Positions 11,473 through 63,439 of a DNA stretch of 64,000 nucleotides are shown in pieces (position 1 is the first letter of the stretch; each line of letters begins with the position of its first letter). This stretch comes from Clostridium sp. BJN0013 (lineage in GTDB: Bacteria > Bacillota > Clostridia > Clostridiales > Clostridiaceae): contig NZ_CP162495.1 in assembly GCF_040939125.1 (NCBI RefSeq), positions 1,116,001 to 1,180,000 of the forward strand. The letters are read 5' to 3'. A model generated the notes under the pieces. That model made no database searches. It saw nothing but the letters and a program-made list of their open reading frames with translations, and was not told where the DNA came from. Position numbers and translations under genes: made by a program.

Positions 11473-11755
11473 ATATACTAAATATTAATTAACTCTAAAT
11501 AAATAGAAATTTCTATAATATGGTATTAAAATATAAAAACTATGATAGGGAAGAGTAAGTAGTAAAATATTTTAAAGAGAGTGGGAATAGGTGAAAGCCC
11601 ACAAATTATATACTATTGAAAATCACCCTGGAGTTGTTAAACTGAACTTATAGTAAGTTTTGCCGGCAAAGCCGTTAATTAAGTTAAGTAAAAAAATTGG
11701 GTGGTACCGCGGACCAAACTTCTCGCCCCATACAGGGAGAAAGTTTGGTCTTTTT
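11473..11755 (+). promoter_or_regulatory. T-box riboswitch, isoleucine specifier (ATC)
   Basis: The invariant T-box sequence GGGTGGTACCGCGG ends at 11712 and is followed by a terminator stem (11712-11724 with 11738-11751) and a T-run. Stem I includes GAGAGTGGG and the GAAA-ATC-ACC specifier region; by alignment with the glyQS T-box (GAAT-GGC-ACC) the specifier codon is ATC at 11622-11624, isoleucine. Uncharged tRNA-Ile should stabilise the antiterminator and turn on ilvC-ilvB. Confidence 0.9.
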
Positions 11756-11834
11756 ATATGCATATTTTTAGATTAAAAAAGTAAATAAATTTAACGTGAA
11801 TATAAGATAAATAACGATGTAGGGGGAAATGGTA

Positions 11835-12836
11835 ATGGAAAGCTTAAAAATTTATTATGATGAAGATAGTAATTTGGATTTATTGAGGGATAAAACAGTG
11901 GCAGTTTTAGGCTATGGAAGCCAAGGTCACGCTCACGCACAAAACCTAAAAGACAGTGGAATTAATGTGGTAGTTGGCTTATATAAAGGCAGCAAGTCCT
12001 GGAGAAGGGCAGAAGAAGATGGTTTTGAAGTGGTGGAAGCTGCAGGTGCTGTAAAAAAAGCAGATTTAGTTATGATACTGATTCCAGATGAAAAGCAAAA
12101 GGGTTTATATATTGACAGTGTTAAAGATAATTTGACAGAGGGAAAAGTACTTATGTTTGCCCATGGATTCAACATACATTTCAATCAGATAACCCCTCCA
12201 GAAAATGTGGATGTAATTATGGTTGCACCTAAAGGACCGGGACATATTGTAAGAAGAGAGTATACAGAAGGAAAGGGAGTTCCATGCCTGTATGCAGTAT
12301 ATCAGGACTATAGTGGAAAAGCTAAGGATTATGCACTGGCTTATGCCAAAGGAATTGGCGGCACAAGGGGAGGAGTACTTGAAACTACATTTAAAGATGA
12401 GACAGAAACAGATTTATTTGGAGAACAGGTAGTACTTTGTGGAGGAGTATCCGAGCTTATAAAAGCAGGATTTGAAACTCTGGTTGAAGCAGGATATGCA
12501 CCTGAAAATGCATATTTTGAGTGCATGCATGAGATGAAATTAATTGTAGATTTAATGAATGAAGGCGGATTAAGCTATATGAGATACTCCATAAGTGATA
12601 CTGCTGAATATGGAGATTACAGCATAGGCAAGAGAATAATAACAGAGGATACAAGAAAGGAAATGAAAAAGGTATTGGGAGAAATTCAAGACGGTACTTT
12701 TGCTAAGAACTGGATATTGGAAAACCAGACAGGAAGACCTTCATTTATTGCAAAGAGAAAAAAAGAACAGAACCATCCTATTGAAGTAGTGGGGAAAAAA
12801 CTTAGATCTATGATGTCCTGGATAAATAGTAAATAA
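11835..12836 (+). CDS. ilvC: Ketol-acid reductoisomerase, copy 1
   Basis: A 333-residue class I ketol-acid reductoisomerase, which rearranges and reduces acetolactate or acetohydroxybutyrate in valine, leucine and isoleucine synthesis. Visible are the dinucleotide-binding motif [19 protein letters not shown], the cofactor loop [17 protein letters not shown], and acidic metal ligands in DLFGEQ and ECMHE. An ATG at 11829 lies only two bases after the GGGGG ribosome site, so the ATG at 11835 is chosen; this also matches the start of the second copy. The enzyme differs from the one at 26782 at two visible positions (Ser/Gly near residue 12, Gly/Asp near residue 73). It precedes ilvB and is controlled by an Ile-type T-box. 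Confidence 0.95.
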
Positions 12837-26518: not shown

Positions 26519-26741
26519 ATAACATTAAAAACTAAGACAGGGATCAAGTAAATGTGACTAACATTTTAAAGAGAGTGGTTGAAGCTGGAAATCCATAAAT
26601 GTTACATGTTGAAACTCCCCCTGGAGTTGTAAGCTGAACTTATAGTAGGCTGTGCCGGTAGAAGCCGTTATAAAGTATGAGTAAGAAATTTGGGTGGTAC
26701 CGCGGTAGACTTTCGCCCCAGGCAGAAGGTCTATTTTTTTA
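26519..26741 (+). promoter_or_regulatory. T-box riboswitch, leucine specifier (CTC)
   Basis: The T-box core GGGTGGTACCGCGG ends at 26705 and a terminator stem follows (TAGACTTT at 26706 with AAGGTCTA, then seven T). The specifier region reads GAAA-CTC-CCC and aligns position for position with GAAA-ATC-ACC of the first leader. The codon at 26615-26617 is CTC, leucine. The core and stem pieces GAGAGTGG and CTGGAGTTG are shared with the first T-box, but the body has diverged. Confidence 0.88.
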
Positions 26742-26781
26742 TGCTATTTTTAAGAAATAAACAATATAGGAGGAAATAATA

Positions 26782-27783
26782 ATGGAAAGCTTAAAAATTT
26801 ATTATGATGAAGATGGTAATCTGGATTTATTGAGGGATAAAACAGTGGCAGTTTTAGGCTATGGAAGCCAGGGTCACGCTCACGCACAAAACCTAAAAGA
26901 CAGTGGAATTAATGTGGTAGTTGGCTTATATAAAGGCAGCAAGTCCTGGAGAAGGGCAGAAGAAGATGGTTTTGAAGTGGTGGAAGCTGCAGATGCTGTA
27001 AAAAAAGCAGATTTAGTTATGATACTGATTCCAGATGAAAAGCAAAAGGGTCTATATATTGACAGTGTTAAAGATAATTTGACAGAGGGAAAAGTACTTA
27101 TGTTTGCCCATGGATTCAACATACATTTCAATCAGATAACCCCTCCAGAAAATGTGGATGTAATTATGGTTGCACCTAAAGGACCGGGACATATTGTAAG
27201 AAGAGAGTATACAGAAGGAAAGGGAGTTCCATGCCTTTATGCAGTATACCAGGATTACAGTGGAAAAGCCAAGGATTATGCACTGGCTTATGCCAAGGGG
27301 ATAGGAGGTACAAGAGGAGGAGTTCTTGAAACCACGTTTAAAGATGAAACAGAAACAGATTTATTTGGAGAACAGGTAGTACTTTGTGGAGGAGTATCAG
27401 AACTTATAAAAGCAGGGTTTGAAACTCTGGTTGAAGCAGGATATGCACCTGAAAATGCATATTTTGAGTGCATGCATGAGATGAAATTAATTGTAGATTT
27501 AATGAATGAAGGCGGATTAAGCTATATGAGATACTCCATAAGTGATACTGCAGAATATGGAGATTACAGCATAGGCAAGAGAATAATAACAGAGGATACA
27601 AGAAAAGAAATGAAAAAGGTATTGGGAGAAATACAAGACGGTACTTTTGCCAAGAACTGGATATTGGAAAACCAGACAGGAAGACCTTCATTTATTGCAA
27701 AGAGGAAAAAAGAACAGAATCATCCTATTGAAGTAGTGGGGAAAAAACTTAGATCTATGATGTCCTGGATAAATAGTAAATAA
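26782..27783 (+). CDS. ilvC: Ketol-acid reductoisomerase, copy 2
   Basis: A 333-residue class I enzyme almost identical to the one at 11835: the same [15 protein letters not shown] dinucleotide motif and the same metal-binding residues, with Gly in DEDGN and Asp in AADAV as the visible differences. AGGAGGAAATAATA places the ATG at 26782. Unlike copy 1 it stands alone, with a terminator directly after it and no ilvB. Its leader reads leucine codon CTC rather than isoleucine ATC. A cell short of leucine could therefore raise reductoisomerase by itself, which is inference from the leaders. Synonymous differences from copy 1 are concentrated in the middle third of the gene. Confidence 0.95.
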
Positions 27784-53646: not shown

Positions 53647-53850
53647 AATCAAGTGATTCTTGGGCTCAGGTGGAGTTTGCTTATAAGGTCTACCTTTCTC
53701 TCCAGCTGAACCTTATTAACAGTATTCTTAGTGTCTTTAGCACTTAGAATACGTTATCCTTTAGGGGAAGAACTTATCCAGGGGCGTAGCAGTGCTTATC
53801 CCCCACTTTGAAGAAGATGGGGGTGTTAGCAATGGTAGCCTTCGGATAAA
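53647..53850 (-). repeat. Structured repeat, copy A (IS200/IS605-end-like)
   Basis: A 204-base element whose reverse complement is about 90 percent identical by eye to 61279-61479. It can fold into CCCCC/GGGGG, GTATTCTTAGTG/CACTTAGAATAC and a 13-base stem (CTCCACCTGAGCC side at 53663-53675). Its terminal AAGAATCACTTGATT recalls right ends of TnpB-type IS200/IS605 elements, which carry guide RNAs. No transposase or tnpB gene is present. Confidence 0.7.
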
Positions 53851-53940
53851 AATAATCAGGTATCAAAATTATTGATTTTTAAAAGAAGTATAGAATGTTT
53901 TGTAAATATAGATATTAAATACAGGAAGGAGAATGCAATT

Positions 53941-55242
53941 ATGAAAAAAGTGAAAATAGCGTTAATGGGACTTGGAAATGTGGGAACCGGGGTTTGGATG
54001 ATCTTAAATTCCAATAAAAAAGAGATAATGAAAAGATCCGGCTATGACGTGGAAGTGGCAAAAATTCTTGTGAGAAATAAAGATAAAAAAAGAGATGTAG
54101 AAGTTCCAGAGGAAATTGTAACTACAGATTTTAATGATATATTAGAAGATGATTCAATTAAAATTGTAATTGAAGTTATGGGTGGAATAGAACCTGCCAA
54201 AGAATACATGTTAAAGTGCATGGATAAAAATAAACATATAGTAACTGCAAATAAAATGCTTATTGCAACTGAGGGAGATGAGCTTTTTGAAAAAGCCCAT
54301 GATAAAGGGGTGGTATTTAATTATGAGGCCAGTGTGGCAGGAGGTATTCCTATAATAAAGGGAATAGAAGAGAGTTTGACTGCCAATAAAATAGAAGAAT
54401 TTTATGGAATAGTAAATGGCACTACAAACTATATTTTAAGTAAAATGCAGCTGGAAAAGTTGGATTTTGATGTGGCTTTAAAACAGGCCCAGGATATGGG
54501 ATATGCTGAAGCTGATCCTACTTCGGATATTGAAGGATTTGATGCCCAGTATAAACTTGCAATACTTTCATCCTTAGCTTTTGGAACAAAGGTGGATGTA
54601 AATAATGTATATAGAGAAGGTATTACAAAAATTGAATCCATAGACATGAAATATGCTAAAAAATTTGATATGGTAATCAAACTGCTCGCCATTGCAAAAG
54701 AGAGTAATGGAAAACTTGAACTTAAAGTGCAGCCTACAATGATTCCGAAGGAACATCCTCTTGCAAATGTGCATGATTCTTTTAATGCCATATTTATAAA
54801 GGGAAATGCAGTGGGAAATCTGATGTTTTATGGAAGGGGAGCAGGAAGTCTTCCAACAGGCAGTGCTGTGGTAAGTGATATTGTTGCCATATTGAGAAGC
54901 AATGTAGATGTGGCAAATTACAGCCATATAGCACAGAATGACTTGTGGCACAGGGAAATACAAAATATTAGTAAAAGCCAAAGTAAATTCTATATAAGAA
55001 TCACTGTAATAGATCAGTCGGGAGTGCTTGGAGAAATAACAACAATTTTAGGGAAATACAATGTAAGTCTCCGTTCTGTAATACAAAAAGGTGAAGAAAA
55101 TTCCAAAGGTGAGGTAACAATAGTATTATTTACCCACAAGACCAGTGAAGCAGATGCCAATAGTGCAGTTGAGAAGCTTATAGATTTAAAATCAGTAATT
55201 ACAATAGATAATGTTATAAGAATAGAAGACTTTAAAAGTTAA
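53941..55242 (+). CDS. hom: Homoserine dehydrogenase with ACT domain
   Basis: A 433-residue enzyme that reduces aspartate semialdehyde to homoserine, the branch to threonine and methionine. VKIALMGLGNVGTGVWMIL is the dinucleotide-binding start; NKHIVTANKMLIATEGDELF and FNYEASVAGGIPIIKGIEE with GIVNGTTNYILSKM are catalytic-domain signatures (Asp and Lys around DMGYAEADPTSDIEGFDAQY). Residues about 350-433 are an ACT domain (ITVIDQSGVLGEITTILGKY) for feedback control. The frame opens at 53872, but AAGGAG nine bases before ATG 53941 sets the start. It is monocistronic between the structured repeat and the pfl genes. No riboswitch precedes it. Confidence 0.95.
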   Translation: MKKVKIALMGLGNVGTGVWMILNSNKKEIMKRSGYDVEVAKILVRNKDKKRDVEVPEEIVTTDFNDILEDDSIKIVIEVMGGIEPAKEYMLKCMDKNKHIVTANKMLIATEGDELFEKAHDKGVVFNYEASVAGGIPIIKGIEESLTANKIEEFYGIVNGTTNYILSKMQLEKLDFDVALKQAQDMGYAEADPTSDIEGFDAQYKLAILSSLAFGTKVDVNNVYREGITKIESIDMKYAKKFDMVIKLLAIAKESNGKLELKVQPTMIPKEHPLANVHDSFNAIFIKGNAVGNLMFYGRGAGSLPTGSAVVSDIVAILRSNVDVANYSHIAQNDLWHREIQNISKSQSKFYIRITVIDQSGVLGEITTILGKYNVSLRSVIQKGEENSKGEVTIVLFTHKTSEADANSAVEKLIDLKSVITIDNVIRIEDFKS

Positions 55243-55252
55243 TGGTTTAGAA

Positions 55253-55407
55253 TTAATAGTTAAGAGTTAAGGATGATTTTCTTCAGTGAAACTTCATAAA
55301 ATCCAACACGTCCCATTAAAGTTATGCTTTAATGGGATGTGTTCCTTAAAAGTTTTTCACAACAAAGTTGAGAAAAACTTTCCTTTATTCTTAACTCTTA
55401 ATTTTTA
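55253..55407. terminator. Nested inverted repeats between convergent hom and pflA
   Basis: The 148-base gap is almost entirely self-complementary. The inner terminator is AACACGTCCCATTAAAG (55305-55321) with CTTTAATGGGATGTGTT (55327-55343). A second stem, AAAGTTTTTC with GAAAAACTTT, lies at 55349-55381. An outer pair is formed by AGTTAAGAGTTAAGGA near 55258 and TTCTTAACTCTTAAT near 55388. It should end transcripts from both sides. Confidence 0.7.
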
Positions 55408-56119
55408 ACTTCTCTGTAACATAATTTTCAAATATTTTCCCCTGTTTTTTATCCATACCACTGATATTATTTAATTTATAAGGTATTTTTAACTGGTCAT
55501 ATTTATTTATCCCCAGTGTATGATATGGAAGAATTTCAAAATTATCTATTTTATCTAAACATATATAACTGCGGATTATATCTATTAATTTGTCCATAGC
55601 CTTATAGCTATCTGTAATTCCAGGTACCATTACATGCCTTAACCACAATTGGCAATTTGAACTATTGAAAGCCTGTAAAAAGTTATAAAATTCTTCTATG
55701 GAGCTACCAGTTAAATTTTTATATCCCTCTTTATCTGTATGCTTTATATCGAGAATTACAAGGTCTGTATATTTTAAAATTTCTTCATAGTTTCCCTTTC
55801 CAAAACCTGAAGTATCTAAAGCTGTATTTATATTATTTTTTCTGCATAATTTTAAAAATTCAAGTAGGAATTCAGGCTGCATAAGTGGTTCTCCTCCAGA
55901 GCAGGTAACTCCTCCACCGGATTTTTCAAAATATACCTTAAATTTTAATACTTTTTTTATAAGTTCGCTGGCCATTATCTCCATACCCTCATCCATAATC
56001 CAGGTATCTGGATTATGGCAGAAGGCACATCTTAATCTGCACCCTTGAAAAAACACAACTACTCTTATTCCGGGACCGTCCACAAGCCCCATAGTTTCTA
56101 TGGAATGAATTTTTCCCAT
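55391..56119 (-). CDS. pflA: Pyruvate formate-lyase activating enzyme
   Basis: A 242-residue radical SAM enzyme that makes the glycyl radical of PflB. The iron-sulfur motif CRLRCAFCHNPD is the hallmark, with the glycine-rich SAM site SGGGVTCSGGEPLMQPEF and DLVILDIKHTDKEGY further on. The length fits PflA. AAAGGTG precedes the ATG. Its start lies ten bases after the pflB stop, so the two are cotranscribed from the ZTP-riboswitch leader. Confidence 0.95.
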   Translation of the reverse strand: MGKIHSIETMGLVDGPGIRVVVFFQGCRLRCAFCHNPDTWIMDEGMEIMASELIKKVLKFKVYFEKSGGGVTCSGGEPLMQPEFLLEFLKLCRKNNINTALDTSGFGKGNYEEILKYTDLVILDIKHTDKEGYKNLTGSSIEEFYNFLQAFNSSNCQLWLRHVMVPGITDSYKAMDKLIDIIRSYICLDKIDNFEILPYHTLGINKYDQLKIPYKLNNISGMDKKQGKIFENYVTEKLKIKS

Positions 56120-56129
56120 AAAATCACCT

Positions 56130-58364
56130 TTAAACTCTTTGGTGGAAGGTTCTTTTGATTACTTCTTCCTGCTGCTGCCTTGTAAGTTTTATAAAATGAA
56201 CTGCATATCCTGAAACACGTATAGTCAAAGTTGGATATTTTTCAGGATTTTCCACAGCATCTAACAGAGTTTCACGATGCATTACATTTACATTTAAATG
56301 GTGTGCTCCTTTTGAGAAATACCCGTCTAAAATGGAAACCAGGTTATTTGTTCTTGTATTTAAATCTTTTCCAAGGGCATCCGGTACAATGGAAAAGGTA
56401 TTTGAAATGCCATCTTGACATACGGAGCGGTAAGGTATTTTAGCTACTGAATTTAAAGATGCCAGAGCACCTTCCCTATCTCTTCCATGCATTGGGTTAG
56501 CACCTGGTGCAAAAGGTTCTCCTGACTTTCTTCCATCTGGTGTAGCCCCGGTTTTTTTGCCATACATTACATTTGAAGTTATGGTAAGTACGGAAAGAGT
56601 ATGCTCTGCATTTCTATAAGTTTCAGTTTTTCTAAGTTCCTTTATAAATTTATTTACAATTTCAACAGCTATATCATCTACTCTGTCGTCATCATTACCG
56701 TACTTTGGAAAATCTCCTTCTATTTTAAAATCCACTGTTATACCCTGTTCATTTCTAATTGGTTTAACTTTTGCATATTTTATAGCACTTAGTGAATCTG
56801 TCGCCACTGAAAGACCTGCTATGCCGCAAGCTAGGAATCTGTGGACCTTAGTATCGTGAAGGGCCATAAGTCCTGCTTCATAGGCATATTTATCGTGCAT
56901 ATAGTGAATTGTGTTAAGGGCATTTACATATAATTTTGCTACATATTCAAGCACTTTGAAATAATTTTTCTTAACTTTTTCATAATTGAGAACTTTATCT
57001 TCCATTTTTTCTATATGCGGTACTATTTTTTCAAAGGTTTTTTCGTCCGAGCCACTGTTAATAGCATATAAAAGGGATTTTGCAATATTGCATCTGGCAC
57101 CGAAAAATTGCATTTCTTTTCCTACAGCCATGGCAGATACACAACAAGCTATGGCATAGTCATCTCCATATACAGGTCTCATAATGTCATCATTTTCATA
57201 TTGCAGTGCATCTGTTTCAATAGACATTCTACTGCAGTATTTTTTAAAGGGTTCCGGCAAGTTTTGAGACCATAGTATTGTTATATTTGGTTCAGGGGCA
57301 GGTCCTAAGTTTGTAAGGGTATTTAAGAATCTATAGGAGTTTTTAGTAACCAGTGTTCTTCCATCTATGGACATACCACCTATGCATTCAGTTACCCAGT
57401 TAGGATCTCCTGCAAATAGTTCATTATAGTCTGGAGTCCTTAAATGTCTTTCCAGCCTGAGTTTTATTACAAATTGATCTATAAGTTCCTGGGCCTCCTG
57501 TTCAGTTATAATACCTTTCTTAAGATCTCTTTCAATATAGATATCCAAAAATGTGGAAACTCTTCCAAGAGACATTGCTGCACCGTTATTTTCTTTTATA
57601 CCTGCAAGGTAACCAAAATAAGTAAATTGTACAGCTTCTTTTGTATTTTTAGCCGGATTTGAAATATCTATTCCATAACTTTCTGCCATATTTTTAATTT
57701 CATTGAGAGCTTTTATCTGTTCCGCCACTTCTTCTCTCTGTCTTAGTATATCCTCCAGCATATTAGGACTTTTAAGGGTTTTTAAATCTTTTTTCTTCTC
57801 TTCAATTAAATAATCTATTCCATAAAGTGCCACCCTTCTAAAGTCACCAATTATTCTTCCTCTTCCATAGGCGTCTGGAAGTCCTGTTATAAGACCTACA
57901 TGCCTTGCAGCTCTTATTTCTTCTGTATATGCATCAAATACACCTTCATTGTGGGTTTTTCTGTATTTTGTAAATATGTTGTCCATATTCTCATCAATTT
58001 TGTATCCATAATCAGTAAGGGCATCTTTGGCCATTTTTATTCCACCAAAAGGGTTCACTATTCTTTTAAGTGGTGCATCTGTCTGCAGTCCTACAATAAC
58101 TTCATTTTCTCTGTCTATATAGCCAGGTCTAAAATTATCGATTCCAGATACAGTATGTGTATCTACATCTAAAACTCCACCTTTTTTAATTTCTTCTAAA
58201 ATAAGTTCTTCAGATTTTTTCCATACTTTTTTAGTTTTTTCTGTAGGGGAGGTTAAAAAACTTTCATCTCCCGTATAAGAAGTGTAGTTTTTTTGTATAA
58301 AATTTCTTACGTCAATATTTTCTGTCCAATTTCCATAATTAAAATTTTCCCATTCTTTTTTCAT
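56130..58364 (-). CDS. pflB: Pyruvate formate-lyase
   Basis: A 744-residue glycyl radical enzyme interconverting pyruvate plus CoA and acetyl-CoA plus formate. In an acetyl-CoA-rich ethanol fermenter it may mainly supply formate for one-carbon metabolism, which the ZTP leader supports. The active-site cysteine pair is in [12 protein letters not shown], and the radical glycine lies in [20 protein letters not shown] near the C-terminus. The start is ATG 58364 (GAGGGG before it, normal family length); the open frame reaches 58403. pflA follows ten bases on. The leader 58455-58550 provides control. Confidence 0.97.
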
Positions 58365-58454
58365 AAAAGCCCCTCTTTTCAATAATATTTTTATAATTTG
58401 CACAAGCTTAAATATTTGGATTAAAGTTTATTCTAGTTTTATATTAATCAAAAA

Positions 58455-58550
58455 GACCGCCTGGACTTTTTGATTGCCCAGGCGGTCGGCTTTTAAAAAT
58501 CGTACTCCCCTGTGGTTAAACCCACTGCCGCCGGTTATACGATTCGCTTA
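58455..58550 (-). promoter_or_regulatory. ZTP (pfl) riboswitch with terminator
   Basis: On the minus strand the leader contains TCGTATAACCGGCGG, a GTGG...CCAC hairpin, GGGGAGTACGA closing the first stem (58538-58543 with 58499-58504), and the hallmark CCGCCTGGGCA. GACCGCCTGG then pairs with CCAGGCGGTC to form a terminator followed by TTTTT, so the aptamer and terminator compete for the same bases. This motif normally precedes pfl, purH, glyA and fhs genes and senses ZTP/ZMP (10-formyl-THF shortage), turning the operon on. It lies about 90 bases before pflB. Confidence 0.9.
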
Positions 58551-58622
58551 AACTCAATTCTATTACTTCATTAAAATATCATATTTATAACGTCCTGTCA
58601 ACGTAAATTTTATGTCTATTTA

Positions 58623-59462
58623 TTACTTTCCCAATTTTTTAGAACCATGATTTCTGCAGTGAATCCATCCTGCATATTCAGGATTATTTTCATCTATACT
58701 TAAGGCTTCTTTTTCAGCTAAATATTTTTTTGCATTATTTCCGTATATTTTTCTATCCTTACCAATTGGACAAACTTTTATGCATACTCCACAGGGATAA
58801 CAGTATGCACTTTTAAGTTTAGCATGATATTCTGCACACTTTTTTTTATCCATATCAGCAATAAGATTTTCTGTAGTTTTTAAGGAAGAGGTAGGGCAGC
58901 ATTTTTTACACATTTCGCATTTGATACAAAGATCTTTGCTAATGACTGGGTCAGGTGGAATCACAGCACTAGTTAAAACAGAAACCAATCTTACTCTTGG
59001 CCCAAATTCTTTTGTTATCAAGGTATGATTATATCCAATAGTACCAAGTCCAACATATTTACCGGCTAATACCTGCGAAAAAGCTGCTTCCGGTTTTTTA
59101 ACAAGAACAGAAATATCTCCATAACAATCTCTAGGAAAGTAAAATGCATTATATCCTAGTGTATTTAAATAATTAGAAATTTTATAGGCAGTATCATCCA
59201 AAATTCTATTTGATGTATTATATAATTCTGAATAAACAACTGAGGGGGTTGTTTCAAGCATTGGTAAATATATTTGAATTTCAAATACAATAACCGTGTT
59301 TACTTCCGGCCATATATTTTGGGGATAATATTCTGGAGCAGTTTCTTTATATTTTTCCCACCTTTCTACAGGGGAGAATCCAATAATATTCATACCTAAT
59401 TCCTTTGCCCTGTTTGTAATGTCAAATTTTAGTTCATAACTTTTATCTGAGAATTTTACCAT
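58623..59462 (-). CDS. Two-cluster 4Fe-4S protein (QueG-like reductase family)
   Basis: A 279-residue soluble protein. Two ferredoxin-type motifs lie at about 178-245: CIKCEMCKKCCP and CYPCGVCIKVCP. The N-terminal 170 residues (LGMNIIGFSPVERWEKY; LAGKYVGLGTIGYNHTLITK; FGPRVRLVSVLTSA) match the DUF1730/QueG-type fold that precedes such clusters in epoxyqueuosine reductase and in reductive-dehalogenase-like proteins, but the usual HEAT tail is missing. It is the last gene of the S-box ABC operon, 82 bases after the permease. Electron transfer to a sulfur compound imported by the transporter is a fair inference. GAGGTG sets the ATG at 59462. Confidence 0.82.
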   Translation of the reverse strand: MVKFSDKSYELKFDITNRAKELGMNIIGFSPVERWEKYKETAPEYYPQNIWPEVNTVIVFEIQIYLPMLETTPSVVYSELYNTSNRILDDTAYKISNYLNTLGYNAFYFPRDCYGDISVLVKKPEAAFSQVLAGKYVGLGTIGYNHTLITKEFGPRVRLVSVLTSAVIPPDPVISKDLCIKCEMCKKCCPTSSLKTTENLIADMDKKKCAEYHAKLKSAYCYPCGVCIKVCPIGKDRKIYGNNAKKYLAEKEALSIDENNPEYAGWIHCRNHGSKKLGK

Positions 59463-59543
59463 ATCATTCACCTCGTAAATTGGGATTTTATAATGAACTG
59501 TGTTTAGTAAACTAAACGTATATCTATTTTTTAACTATGTTAT

Positions 59544-60326
59544 CTATGAATCAAACTCTTTCCAAAAAATTAATTTAGATTCCAGAAAGGATAAAATAAA
59601 ATTTAATACAATTCCTAGTATAGATAGTAATACTATTGCACCGTACATCTGAGAGGTATTAAATGTTTCTTGAGAATTATTAACTAAGAAACCTAGTCCT
59701 GATTGAGCTCCTATCATTTCGGCTGCCACTAGAACCATAACGGCGTAGGCACTTGCAAGTTTAATGCCTGTTAAAATAGAAGGAATTGAACCAGGCAATA
59801 CAACCTTTATAAAAACCATAAGCCTTCCAGCGCCCATAGTCAGCACAGATTTTGTATACAGTGGGTTAACACCTTTTACTCCACTAATAGTATTTATTAA
59901 TATTGGCCATAGGCTGGCCCAAAATATAATTGCTACTTTGGATACTTCACCAATGCCAAAAAATAAGATGAAAACAGGGAAAAGTGCTAATGCGGATATT
60001 TGCCTGAAGAGTTGCAAAAAAGAATCCAGTAGAGATTCTATAATTTTACATCTGCCAATAAACAAACCAAGGGGGACTGCAAATACAATGGCCAGAATCA
60101 ATCCACTCATAATTCTTTTTAGACTTATTAATAAGTGTACCTTAAGTTTTCCAGTTTCTGCTAATAACAAAATGGAGTTCATTACTGAGGTTGGAGTACT
60201 TGTATAGGTTTTTTTCAGTACTCCAATTTCAGGTAAAATCTGCCATAAGATCAAGAATAGTATTATTAGTAGATTTGAAAAAATAAAAGAATAAATTTTT
60301 GAAATAATTAATTTAGGCAATTTCAT
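59544..60326 (-). CDS. ABC permease, NitT/TauT (SsuC/TauC) type
   Basis: A 260-residue inner-membrane protein with six hydrophobic helices (FIFSNLLIILFLILWQILPE at the start). The cytoplasmic EAA-type loop is GAGRLMVFIKVVLPGSIPSI, and LASAYAVMVLVAAEMIGAQSG is typical of sulfonate/taurine/nitrate permeases. The frame extends to GTG 60335; ATG 60326 is chosen. Its start overlaps the end of the ATPase gene by about 14 bases, so they are translationally coupled. It should form the channel for the ligand bound by the lipoprotein at 61478. Confidence 0.92.
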   Translation of the reverse strand: MKLPKLIISKIYSFIFSNLLIILFLILWQILPEIGVLKKTYTSTPTSVMNSILLLAETGKLKVHLLISLKRIMSGLILAIVFAVPLGLFIGRCKIIESLLDSFLQLFRQISALALFPVFILFFGIGEVSKVAIIFWASLWPILINTISGVKGVNPLYTKSVLTMGAGRLMVFIKVVLPGSIPSILTGIKLASAYAVMVLVAAEMIGAQSGLGFLVNNSQETFNTSQMYGAIVLLSILGIVLNFILSFLESKLIFWKEFDS

Positions 60327-61125
60327 AATTATCACATCTCTGATTATTTTTAGCGTCAGAACCTGTATTCACCTGGTCGCTAATTTCAGACCATATTTCT
60401 TTTCGTAATCTTTGAAATTCACTATCATCATGGCTTCGTGGATAAGGAAGATTAACATTTAGTGTTTTTACTATTCTACCGGGATTTGATCCCATTATAA
60501 TAATTTCATTAGATAAATATATAGCCTCATCCACACTATGGGTTACAAAGATAATGGTTTTTTTAGTCTTTTCCCATATGCCTAGTAACTCCTGCTGTAA
60601 AATTTCTCTGGTTTGTGCATCTAATGCTGAAAATGGTTCGTCCATTAAAAGTACCTTGGGATCATAGGCAAGGCCTCTTGCTATAGCCACTCTTTGTCTC
60701 ATACCTCCTGATAATTGACCAGGATAATATTTTTCATATTTAGAAAGTCCTACTAAATGTATAAACTTTTTTGCCAACTCTTTTCTCTTTTTTTTAGGTA
60801 CTTTATTTATTTCAAGGCCAAGTTCTACATTTTGCAATACAGTTCTCCATGGAAGAAGTGCATATCCTTGAAATACCATACCTCTGTCACTTCCGGGCCC
60901 CTTTACTTCATTTGAATCAACTAAAACATTTCCTTTAGTAGGATTCACTAATCCCCCTATAATATTAAGTAATATGGACTTCCCGCATCCACTGGGTCCA
61001 ACTATACATACAAATTGCCCTTCTTCGATATCAAGATTTATATCTTCCAATACTTTAATATTAATTTTTTTATTATTAGGGTGTTTATAAAATTGTTCAA
61101 TATTTTTTACCGATATTTTATTCAA
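60313..61125 (-). CDS. ABC importer ATPase, NitT/TauT (SsuB/TauB) type
   Basis: A 270-residue ATPase. Walker A is GPSGCGKSILLNIIGGL, signature LSGGMRQRVAIARGLAYDP, Walker B VLLMDEPFSALDAQT, H-loop FVTHSVDEAIYLS. EMPTY-type substrates such as sulfonates, taurine and nitrate are typical of the class. AAGGAG touches the ATG at 61134 directly, so TTG 61125 (nine bases later) is the more likely start; both are in frame. It follows the binding-protein gene by 353 bases of noncoding DNA that hold a hairpin and a structured repeat, unlike the tight spacing to the permease. Confidence 0.92.
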   Translation of the reverse strand: MNKISVKNIEQFYKHPNNKKINIKVLEDINLDIEEGQFVCIVGPSGCGKSILLNIIGGLVNPTKGNVLVDSNEVKGPGSDRGMVFQGYALLPWRTVLQNVELGLEINKVPKKKRKELAKKFIHLVGLSKYEKYYPGQLSGGMRQRVAIARGLAYDPKVLLMDEPFSALDAQTREILQQELLGIWEKTKKTIIFVTHSVDEAIYLSNEIIIMGSNPGRIVKTLNVNLPYPRSHDDSEFQRLRKEIWSEISDQVNTGSDAKNNQRCDNYEIA

Positions 61126-61193
61126 AATTTCCATCTCCTTATAACAAACTAACTAATGAGTTCTTATTTATAGGCAGCTATTTTTGATTAAGT

Positions 61194-61234
61194 GTAAGCA
61201 TAGTAAACATTAACGTGATATTTACTATGCTTAC
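61194..61234 (-). other. 14-bp intercistronic hairpin
   Basis: GTAAGCATAGTAAA (61194-61207) and its exact complement (61221-61234) lie between the binding-protein and ATPase genes. No T-run follows on the minus strand. It may protect the upstream transcript end or cause partial termination, giving more binding protein than transporter. Confidence 0.6.
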
Positions 61235-61278
61235 GGAAGGATATAATAATTTTTTATTCAATATTTTATTGTTACATA

Positions 61279-61479
61279 TTTATCCGAAGGCTACCATTGC
61301 TAACACCCCCATCTTATTCAAGTGGGGGATAAGCACTGCTATGCCCCTGGATAAGTTCTTCCCCTAAAGGATAACGTATTCTAAGTGCTAAAGACACTAA
61401 GAATACTGTTAATAAGGTTCAGATGGAGAAAAGTAATCCTTATAGGCAAACTCCACCTGAACCTAAGAATCACTTGATT
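61279..61479 (+). repeat. Structured repeat, copy B (IS200/IS605-end-like)
   Basis: A 201-base partner of 53647-53850 in opposite orientation. The stem GGTTCAGATGGAG (61416-61428) with CTCCACCTGAACC (61451-61463) has A-T where copy A has a G-T pair, a compensating change. The last shared bases, CACTTGATT, overlap the stop codon of the binding-protein gene at 61478-61480, so the element landed exactly at the gene's end. Confidence 0.7.
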
Positions 61480-62464
61480 ATTGGGATTTACTGTAGGGAT
61501 TAAATTCATTTGTATATAAGTCGTTAACCTTAACTTTATCTGATTTTAATTTGCCATTTTTCTCTAAATAATCCACCCACCATTTTACTGACTTTTGTGG
61601 AATGATTTGGTGTTCATAATAATTCCATGCTTCAACATCATCCACCTTAATTCCCAATTTATTAGCTATAATTTGTTTCCCTTCACTTTCATGATTTTTG
61701 GACCAATCTGCTGCTTTAGCTACTGCAGTTACGAATCCTTTTACTGCCTGGGGGTTCTTTTTAATAAAACCTTCGTTTGTAAAATATGGACACATACCAC
61801 TTATACCATCCTCTAAAGCATAATCATTAACTAATTCTTTTAAATTCGGATTTTTAAGAGCTTTTTTAGTATATGGAGCATGTACAATTGCAATATCTAC
61901 TAAATGTTGCTCTACAGCTTGTTCTTGTTGAGAATCCGGTAACACAACGAAGTTTACATTATTAGGATCAATATTTTCCTTTCTTAAAAATTCTCTTGTA
62001 ACAAATTCTGAACATGCTCCAAATGAGTTTATTGCAACTTTTTTGCCAGCAATATCTTTAATACTATTTATGCCACTATCTTTTCTAACTATATATCTCA
62101 TATGAGGATAATTAGCTAATGATTGAGTTCCTGCTGCAACTATTTTAAGATTTGAACCTTGAGCATTAGCCATTGCAACTAAAGGAGTATGTCTTAATCC
62201 AAAGTCAATACTTCCTGATGCAACTGATGGAACAATTTGAGCTGCTGGTATTTCTCCCACATATTTAATTTTTATTCCCTGTTCTTTAAAATATCCCTTT
62301 GAATCAGCAATATACACTGCATCATACCATTGAGTATTGGGATATTTTATTATGATTTCTTTTGAATTTGATGTATTTTTGCTGTTAGTGTTATTTGACT
62401 TAGAACATCCAACTGTCCCTAAAGATAATATTGCCGTTAAGACTAAAATTAATAAATTTTTCAT
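61478..62464 (-). CDS. ABC substrate-binding lipoprotein, SsuA/TauA (NMT1-like) type
   Basis: A 328-residue exported lipoprotein. The signal peptide ends in the lipobox LGTVGCSKS; the mature part follows the SsuA/NMT1 fold: IKYPNTQWYDAVYIADSKGY, then VPSVASGSIDFGLRHTPLVA, and SIKDIAGKKVAINSFGACSE. Family members bind sulfonates, taurine, nitrate or thiamine-pyrimidine precursors; the ligand here is unknown. ATG 62464 is chosen over the upstream ATG 62482 because it gives a normal signal peptide after GGGAGG. It is the first gene of the operon, directly behind an S-box, which points to a sulfur- or methionine-linked substrate. Confidence 0.92.
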   Translation of the reverse strand: MKNLLILVLTAILSLGTVGCSKSNNTNSKNTSNSKEIIIKYPNTQWYDAVYIADSKGYFKEQGIKIKYVGEIPAAQIVPSVASGSIDFGLRHTPLVAMANAQGSNLKIVAAGTQSLANYPHMRYIVRKDSGINSIKDIAGKKVAINSFGACSEFVTREFLRKENIDPNNVNFVVLPDSQQEQAVEQHLVDIAIVHAPYTKKALKNPNLKELVNDYALEDGISGMCPYFTNEGFIKKNPQAVKGFVTAVAKAADWSKNHESEGKQIIANKLGIKVDDVEAWNYYEHQIIPQKSVKWWVDYLEKNGKLKSDKVKVNDLYTNEFNPYSKSQ

Positions 62465-62670
62465 GTTCAATTTTCCTCCCATTATTAAATAACATTAGCA
62501 TAATTTAATATGGGCATAGCGCTATACTCCATTATGTAAATTTTTACTTGAATTGATTAGTCATAATATTTATGAGTATTTTTAATAAAAATTCACGTAA
62601 AAATAAATTTAGTCTCCAGTATTTCTGGTGAACTGAAATGTATTAATATATTTATTTTGTAAAATAAAAA

Positions 62671-62814
62671 ACTTTCTTGTAAAAACGAGATACAAGAAAG
62701 TAGATTTTCTCAATTCTCATCTTTCAGGTAATTACCTGTAGGAATTAGCACCTTTAAATAAAATTTAGGTTGCCGGACATCATAGGGCCAGTCCCTCCGT
62801 CTCTCTAGATAAGA
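62671..62814 (-). promoter_or_regulatory. SAM-I riboswitch (S-box) with terminator
   Basis: On the minus strand the leader reads CTTATC, AGAGAGACGGAGGGACTGGC, the CCGGCAACC core, GGTGCTAATTCC, and closes with GATGAG (P1 between 62808-62813 and 62716-62721). This is the standard S-box layout. A terminator follows: ACTTTCTTGTA (62691-62701 side) with TACAAGAAAGT and TTTTTT. High SAM should stop transcription of the ABC and Fe-S genes at 58623-62464. I am confident of the class; no other S-box gene is in the window. Confidence 0.95.
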
Positions 62815-62833
62815 AATATATTTAATTAGCATT

Positions 62834-62862
62834 ATGATATCAAATAAAATATACTTTGTCAA
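62834..62862 (-). promoter_or_regulatory. Promoter of the S-box operon
   Basis: On the minus strand TTGACA (62857-62862) and TATCAT (62834-62839) are 17 bases apart. The start point would be about 15 bases before the S-box P1 stem. Confidence 0.8.
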
Positions 62863-63037: not shown

Positions 63038-63400
63038 TTATCTGTAATCATGACAGATAATGATCTTATCTGCCGCTTCTGACCAGTTTGTATTTTCTAA
63101 ATTAATATTACCTTCACTTATAGTTTTATTGAGATCCAGTAAGAATTCTGCCATAAAATTAAATGTACTTCCCTCATTTTCTTTACTTTCAAACCATATA
63201 TTTCTATTTATAATTTTTACCAGTTCTTTTGATATTAAAAGTCCAAGGCCTGTAGTAGAATGATATTTACTGTGAGGTGGCTGATGGCAAATAAATTTTT
63301 TGAAAATTTGATTTTTAACTTCCTCTTTAATGCCCATACCTGTATTTTCTATGGAAAATTCTAAAATTACTTTTTCATTGTTTCCATTATAAACTTCCAT
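63038..63400 (-). pseudogene. C-terminal fragment of a sensor histidine kinase
   Basis: A 120-residue reading frame with only part of a HATPase_c domain: SIENTGMGIKEEVKNQIFKK (G1 and F boxes) and TTGLGLLISKELVKIINRNI (G2). The phospho-acceptor histidine, the N-box and any sensor are missing and no ribosome site precedes the ATG. It is probably a degraded leftover. Confidence 0.65.
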
Positions 63401-63439
63401 AAAACTTATTGAAATTGTATTATTTTTATGGTAAGATTA

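Follow-up and report, generated by a model that had tools for sequence, protein, structure and literature searches.

Aerobic organosulfur-scavenging systems of the SsuEADCB and TauABCD kind combine an NMT1-type ATP-binding cassette (ABC) importer with sulfur-starvation control, and we know of no vitamin B12-dependent enzyme of the dehalogenase type that acts on sulfur. Class III B12 enzymes fall into two named kinds in the abstract of PMC7585037, the reductive dehalogenases (RdhA) and the epoxyqueuosine reductases (QueG). Here, we describe an operon within a 64,000-nucleotide stretch of the Clostridium sp. BJN0013 genome (contig NZ_CP162495.1, positions 1,116,001 to 1,180,000; this whole stretch is referred to as the window), in which an S-adenosylmethionine (SAM) riboswitch precedes genes for a substrate-binding lipoprotein, an ATPase, a permease, and a two-cluster iron-sulfur protein of the RdhA/QueG superfamily, which we call QG. 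We put at about even the chances that this operon is an accessory organosulfur-scavenging module in which QG reductively breaks a bond to sulfur, and offer more tentatively the idea that class III B12 enzymes have a third functional branch in QG, which would use Co(I) together with its two [4Fe-4S] clusters to reduce organosulfur compounds by cleaving a bond to sulfur. No description of an S-box-linked RdhA/QueG-like protein was found in the titles and abstract openings of the open-licence literature, a body of text that leaves subscription literature mostly outside.

Every element of the operon lies on the minus strand, between 62862 and 58623. A sigma-A-type promoter (TTGACA-17-TATCAT, 62862-62834) matches 11 of 12 consensus bases and is the top of 24 matches in the window scan, a total that is itself at chance level (shuffle mean 25.1). 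Downstream lies a SAM-I riboswitch (S-box) aptamer, a predicted SAM binder with a conserved core (62815-62714; RF00162, 96.7 bits against a gathering threshold of 44.4), which scores highest among the 22 S-boxes of this genome; rare variants of this riboswitch recognize other ligands, for instance spermidine. An intrinsic terminator-like stem-loop with a U-run follows it (about 62701-62662; -13.8 kcal/mol); this hairpin does not appear in our terminator scan list, probably because the scan admits loops of up to 8 bases and this one has 9. The importer genes encode an NMT1/SsuA-like binding protein (62482-61478; PF09084, 119.3 bits) whose N-terminus is lipobox-like by eye, a SaoA/TauB/SsuB-like ATPase (61134-60313; PF00005, 111 bits; NF040729, 280.8 bits, under its cut-off of 360), and a SaoP/TauC/SsuC-like permease (60335-59544; PF00528, 84.8 bits; NF040733, 151 bits, under its cut-off of 295), with all three Pfam matches above cut-off. 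QG itself (58623-59462) is 279 residues long from an ATG at 59462, which is preceded by GAGGTG and is the likelier start, or 282 from a GTG at 59471. A preliminary description of this DNA, made without database searches, had proposed an S-box with its own promoter ahead of a NitT/TauT-class lipoprotein, ATPase, and permease and a QueG-like protein lacking the HEAT tail, and these assignments are borne out, with the importer of NMT1/Ssu type. Unlike SsuEADCB and TauABCD, the operon encodes no flavin monooxygenase or dioxygenase, is under S-box control, and resides in an anaerobic host.

By homology, QG consists of a B12-type domain followed by a ferredoxin domain with two [4Fe-4S] clusters, and it falls short of the cut-offs for both described families, scoring 49.7 bits against the RdhA model TIGR02486 (cut-off 160.35) and 41.1 bits against the QueG model TIGR00276 (cut-off 200). 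A profile built from 70 QG sequences (the window plus 69 of 80 collected loci, also the basis of the QG tree) was compared with the PDB by hmmsearch: the first-ranked match, the polyferredoxin-type chain 9sw6, covers the cluster region only, and the best solved relative whose match extends into the B12 domain, covering a portion of it, is the tetrachloroethene dehalogenase 8q4h (E 3.5e-18), with QueG 5d08 at E 4e-13. Aligned by hhalign to 12 QueG proteins from QG-bearing genomes (9 retained by the filter), QG matches over 213 columns (99.4%, E 9.5e-22), with the same domain order as QueG structures 5d6s and 5d08. The eight cluster cysteines (C179, C182, C185, C189, C209, C224, C227, and C231) are all present in 70 of 70 rows, and the AlphaFold2 model of QG has a predicted local distance difference test score of 94.7. 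In contrast to QueG, QG has no HEAT repeat by Pfam, its chain ending 48 residues past the last cluster cysteine, lacks the DYH motif in its sequence and in the alignment with QueG, coexists with QueG or QueH, and occurs in a sulfur-amino-acid context. The PS motif and ferredoxin domain of RdhA (8q4h, 4uqu) also align with QG; unlike RdhA, however, the QG N-terminus (MVKFSDKSYEL) carries no twin-arginine leader by eye, and no RdhB-like small membrane protein was seen by eye beside it in the window's list of open reading frames (ORFs). A further difference, from sequence alignment only, is that Asn85 (70/70 rows) and Arg111 (69/70) align to a Tyr and an Asn of 8q4h, which we take for the RdhA Tyr246 and Asn272 positions. 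PMC4646009 gives the tyrosine above the corrin as common to QueG (Tyr101) and RdhA (Tyr246) and also names RdhA Asn272. As judged from sequence, QG and its relatives make up a clade of their own in the RdhA/QueG (class III B12-type) superfamily, spread over several phyla of anaerobes, and QG presumably binds cobalamin. A search of plasmids for QG gave no match at E 1e-15.

The genes beside QG point repeatedly to sulfur. Neighbors were counted at 72 of the 80 loci, the remaining eight (L083, L096, L105, L108, L113, L116, L117, L120) having no called QG ORF, with a panel comprising organosulfur-type importers, pyridoxal phosphate (PLP) enzymes of cysteine or methionine metabolism, cysteine synthase, M20 deacylases, nitrogenase-like genes, and cupins resembling cysteine dioxygenase (CDO). 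A panel gene is an immediate neighbor of QG at 60 of the 72 loci, compared with 11 of the 434 remaining ORFs at these loci, though the former figure is inflated for CDO-like and PLP genes because the panel was partly picked from QG neighbors; at 63 of 72 loci a panel gene lies within the QG directon. These directons contain PLP enzymes (26), CDO-like cupins (24), MetQ (18), SsuA (9), SsuC (9), M20 deacylases (6), CysK (4), and nitrogenase-like genes (2). The order S-box-MetNIQ-QG-PLP-M20 is found in C. carboxidivorans, C. drakei, and C. muellerianum (L046-L048), S-box-QG-PLP in C. folliculivorans, C. zeae, C. manihotivorum, and Clostridium sp. C8-1-8, S-box-SsuACB-QG in C. bovifaecis, and S-box-QG alone in C. 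luticellarii; beyond these, several Bacteroidota carry MetQ-QG-PLP and three Synergistota (L084, L087, L088) MetQ-QG-CysK, and QG of Sporomusa silvacetica lies with SsuABC, MetQI, PLP and M20 genes, and two nitrogenase-like pairs. The MetQ-QG-CysK and S-box-MetNIQ-QG-PLP-M20 orders suggest a sulfide- or thiol-level product. Methionine gamma-lyase and O-acetylhomoserine sulfhydrylase models pick up the QG-linked PLP enzymes, neither of the two tested exceeding a cut-off. On the QG tree, the type of neighbor, labeled by hand with one label per locus, undergoes no fewer than 18 changes, so that different importers appear to serve one QG clade; some QG loci have no transporter at all (L039, L042-L045). 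In Methanoperedenaceae (L110), QG adjoins nitrogenase-like genes, several Ssu-type importer genes, and a dehydratase activase, and the same locus encodes a double-cubane reductase (NF040772, 502.7 bits).

Regulation of QG loci shows a related pattern. An S-box lies upstream, in the same direction, of 10 of the 15 Clostridiaceae QG copies (the window and 9 of 14 loci fetched from the family); these copies come from 14 genomes, window included, and one of them (L052, genome G131) is a partial gene. A model built from the QG S-boxes matched 11 of the 80 loci, nine of them in genomes already counted, the others being an uncultured Clostridia locus (L078) and a Sporomusaceae locus (L097). Sixteen weaker QG-like paralogs, taken as a control, had no S-box apart from one 13-bit noise match within about 1.5 kb of flank per side, a span short enough that an S-box at the distance seen in the window would have been missed. 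In a relative from another genus (G148), all four genes of the window operon recur, 76-82% identical, with a T-box in place of the S-box. That T-box scores 84.3 bits (E 1.1e-18, 814 bases searched), under the gathering threshold of 93, and its specifier, read in register with the two ilvC T-boxes of the window, is UGC (Cys); the same register ruled out a Met (AUG) specifier. As the T-box of this relative reads cysteine and the leaders of others are S-boxes, the product may feed both amino acids, as sulfide would. The two ilvC genes of the window (11533-12836 and 26525-27783) are themselves nearly identical, with an AUC (Ile) specifier in one T-box and CUC (Leu) in the other. In strain BL-3 (L040:4545-4813, reverse strand), QG is a lone gene; its leader, which contains a hairpin followed by a U-run, has no credible Rfam match and is possibly an undescribed regulatory RNA.

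The host genome holds several other S-box operons of comparable design, among 22 S-boxes and 22 nitrogenase-family matches (operon members without a family call were named by eye). Four have D/K pairs resembling methylthio-alkane reductase, three of these with Ssu or Met ABC importers: NifB-SsuC-SsuA-SsuB-D-K-NifH-D-K at L185, D-K-SsuC-SsuB-SsuA at L189, MetN-MetI-MetQ-D-K at L180, and, at L188, a 175-residue ORF (NifX-like by eye) followed by CysK-K-D. For the three D proteins tested, the best solved match was chain A of 9FMG (E 2.3e-147, 3.5e-110, and 1.8e-59), which PMC12552129 presents as the methylthio-alkane reductase complex (MarBHDK); the D proteins of L180 and L185 are 74% identical. 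Like three of these operons, the window operon joins an S-box and an ABC importer to a low-potential reductase, and its Ssu importer is related to those of two of them: the window SsuA falls into a 10-row clade (support 99/99) with SsuA of L185 and L189 in trees from which 11 loci, intended as duplicate genomes, were omitted. That clade excludes another Ssu lineage that is also linked to QG. Unlike them, the window operon has QG instead of the nitrogenase-like DK pair, no such pair being found within 58623-62862, and has no NifB or NifH. By analogy, it would correspond to the S-box/importer/nitrogenase-like operons in the same genome, with a QueG-like enzyme as the reductase. PMC10418091 (version 4) ties corrinoid methyltransferase clusters and nitrogenase-like genes to sulfur or methionine salvage. 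An earlier version of that article contains both "SAM riboswitch" and "nitrogenase-like," the former term being absent from passages of version 4, so a connection between S-boxes and nitrogenase-like genes may have been published before. Further S-boxes precede sulfate assimilation genes, aprA among them (L176), an O-acetylhomoserine sulfhydrylase (L182; TIGR01326, 528.7 bits against 495.1), and, downstream of the nitrogenase-like pair of L180, sufC with apparent Fe-S assembly neighbors (from L180:7891-8637). At L186, an S-box and an IS200-like ORF (by eye) precede a sulfonate glycyl-radical enzyme (NF048011, 1575 bits against 1000), its activase, and an Ssu importer. Such HpsG/IslA-class lyases have in common with the window operon anaerobic organosulfur use, an S-box, and an Ssu-type importer; the window operon differs in having QG in place of the glycyl-radical enzyme and an importer of a different lineage.

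Together, we favor a scheme in which low SAM would let the S-box permit transcription, after which the lipoprotein and ABC pump would bring in a small organic acid that contains sulfur, or a compound of similar nature. In the cytoplasm, QG, with its two [4Fe-4S] clusters and probably a corrinoid in the base-off state, would take electrons from ferredoxin and reductively cleave a bond to sulfur. The sulfide, sulfite, or thiol set free would be fixed into homocysteine, methionine, and cysteine by O-acetylhomoserine sulfhydrylase and cysteine synthase, enzymes encoded behind S-boxes elsewhere in this genome. The sequence itself establishes the gene content, the S-box, the superfamily of QG, its recurring sulfur context, and the existence of a separate queuosine reductase; cobalamin, ferredoxin, the bond broken, the substrate, and the product are what we infer. 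The preliminary description had arrived at a reductive route on the grounds that oxygen-dependent cleavage is barred to an anaerobe, with QG supplying the electrons. The anaerobic sulfur-supply role is supported by the S-box and the gene neighbors; other anaerobic routes exist, however, and this genome has genes for enzymes resembling methylthio-alkane reductase and for sulfonate glycyl-radical enzymes. As the operon encodes no further catalytic protein and some QG loci lack a transporter, we consider it more likely that QG is the reductase than that it donates electrons to an enzyme not seen here. If so, the QG clade, with methionine- or cysteine-synthesis regulation in Clostridium and at least three kinds of importer partner, would offer a new anaerobic way of releasing sulfur from organic compounds and place the window operon in a larger S-box regulon that includes several methylthio-alkane-reductase-like operons. 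Such a third branch of class III enzymes would serve methionine and cysteine supply across several anaerobe phyla as a small alternative to the nitrogenase-like methylthio-alkane reductases. QG is a small single-subunit target, and its own binding proteins offer a route to the substrate.

Several observations weigh against this scheme. A riboswitch for methionine or cysteine (Rfam) was found at none of nine Bacteroidota or Synergistota QG loci and at one of nine others (L097, with S-boxes). QG is present in only 14 of 206 genomes of the family, and within the genus in 3 of 13 genomes. From the alignment, an invariant Asn in place of the shared Tyr may mean that the chemistry differs or that cobalamin is absent. 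The closest solved binding proteins include ones of the thiamine pathway, C. difficile 4nmy and yeast THI5/THI13, and the neighbor count is inflated as noted above. Finally, 26 of 70 QG sequences form one clade (support 100/97), 20 of them adjoining a CDO-like cupin (PF05995, 30.3 bits in the one member tested), and this clade has no explanation in the proposed model. Known members of the CDO_I family use oxygen; the QG-linked cupins (for example L092:6973-7674; cluster c3, 32 ORFs in 32 loci) occur in anaerobe lineages.

Two alternatives keep the link to sulfur and change the bond, and we regard both as unlikely. In one, a sulfonate is imported and QG cleaves its C-SO3 bond reductively to give sulfite. 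The nearest NCBIfam subfamily of the binding protein is indeed SsuA_fam, and CDO-like and Ssu neighbors are compatible with oxidized organosulfur; the match to that model (TIGR01728, 101.1 bits) is nevertheless under the cut-off of 163.5, QG is also paired with MetQ-type importers, and the clear sulfonate system of this genome is the glycyl-radical operon L186, whose importer resembles that of the window less (SsuC/B/A identities of 30/48/27%) than the L189 importer does (50/50/36%), with the ATPases hardly discriminating. Going by sequence, the sulfonate importer of the preliminary description is thus possible and not the default, the window importer grouping with the Ssu importers of S-box/nitrogenase-like operons. 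In the other, to which we give the same low weight, QG reduces an S-S or S=O bond (of a disulfide, thiosulfonate, or sulfoxide) in an imported methionine or cysteine derivative with no C-S cleavage. MetQ-type importers and M20 deacylases adjoin QG, and small Fe-S enzymes are capable of such reductions; against this, simpler thiol-based reductases exist for sulfoxides and disulfides. Also against it, the reactions on record for the superfamily, in which a halide or an epoxide is removed, cleave a bond to carbon (PMC4646009).

It is somewhat less probable still that QG assists MetH or methylthio-alkane-reductase-like proteins, whether by carrying electrons to them or as their activase. QG adjoins nitrogenase-like genes in Sporomusa (L093) and Methanoperedens (L110), and the MetH reactivation domain is found in none of the 13 genomes of the window genus. 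However, five genomes with QG do possess that domain, and 10 congeners without QG lack it, a distribution that ruled out MetH reactivase as a general role of QG. Similarly, a MarD-like protein (E<=1e-60) occurs in only 5 of 14 QG-bearing genomes, nine having none, and 36 of 41 MarD-bearing genomes have no QG of at least 45% identity, which ruled out an obligate helper role for methylthio-alkane-reductase-like enzymes; pairing with an importer would also be odd for an activase. Chance adjacency of QG to an importer for another NMT1-type ligand, such as a thiamine precursor or nitrate, seems highly improbable: the preliminary description had allowed for such a ligand, and the thiamine-pathway relatives of the binding protein are compatible with it, but S-box and cysteine T-box control, the same four genes in another genus, and the recurrence of QG beside importers of two distinct Ssu clades and beside MetNIQ argue otherwise. 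As for QG being an ordinary epoxyqueuosine reductase, its homology to QueG is real, but the score far below cut-off, the missing HEAT and DYH features, and a second enzyme for the epoxyqueuosine step in 14 of 14 QG-bearing genomes examined (QueH at 238 bits, with no QueG above cut-off, in the window genome; QueG above cut-off in 12 of 13 others; QueH in the thirteenth, G131) led us to reject that identity, leaving a queuosine role very unlikely, with a probability we consider negligible.

In relatives G003 and G004, a match to window 53873-58608 at 91% identity is followed by 432 bp and then by a match to window 63119; as these 432 bp alone separate the flanking matches, a block of 4.5 kb is absent there, and the window block forms a self-contained accessory unit that was either acquired in this genome or lost from G003 and G004. 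The unit is bounded at its 3' end by a ZTP riboswitch that leads into a pyruvate formate-lyase-like ORF, named by eye. Near its other end, a truncated histidine kinase lies at 63038-63406, and G003 and G004 have about 3.2 kb extra between the histidine kinase match and a prepilin peptidase match. Within the operon, the 343-bp gap between the binding protein and ATPase genes includes a dispersed repeat of about 200 bp (61279-61480, no strand assigned), which we place outside operon function; in G148, this gap is 123 bp and shows no similarity to the repeat. The genome has at least 39 further copies, 81-96% identical, a lower bound, as 40 of 311 first candidates were scored and more may exist. 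The repeat is structured, with a second window copy at 53649-53853 and others at L003-L009, and one copy (L185:8922-9145) separates the NifH-like from the D-like gene of the L185 operon. The SsuB ORF of that operon (L185:4296-4892) is short, at 198 residues, with an end resembling a permease C-terminus by eye, and its importer may be broken. At L186:545-4102, the IS200-like ORF stands between the S-box and the sulfopropanediol/isethionate-class glycyl-radical enzyme operon, and this transposon may cut the riboswitch off from the operon.

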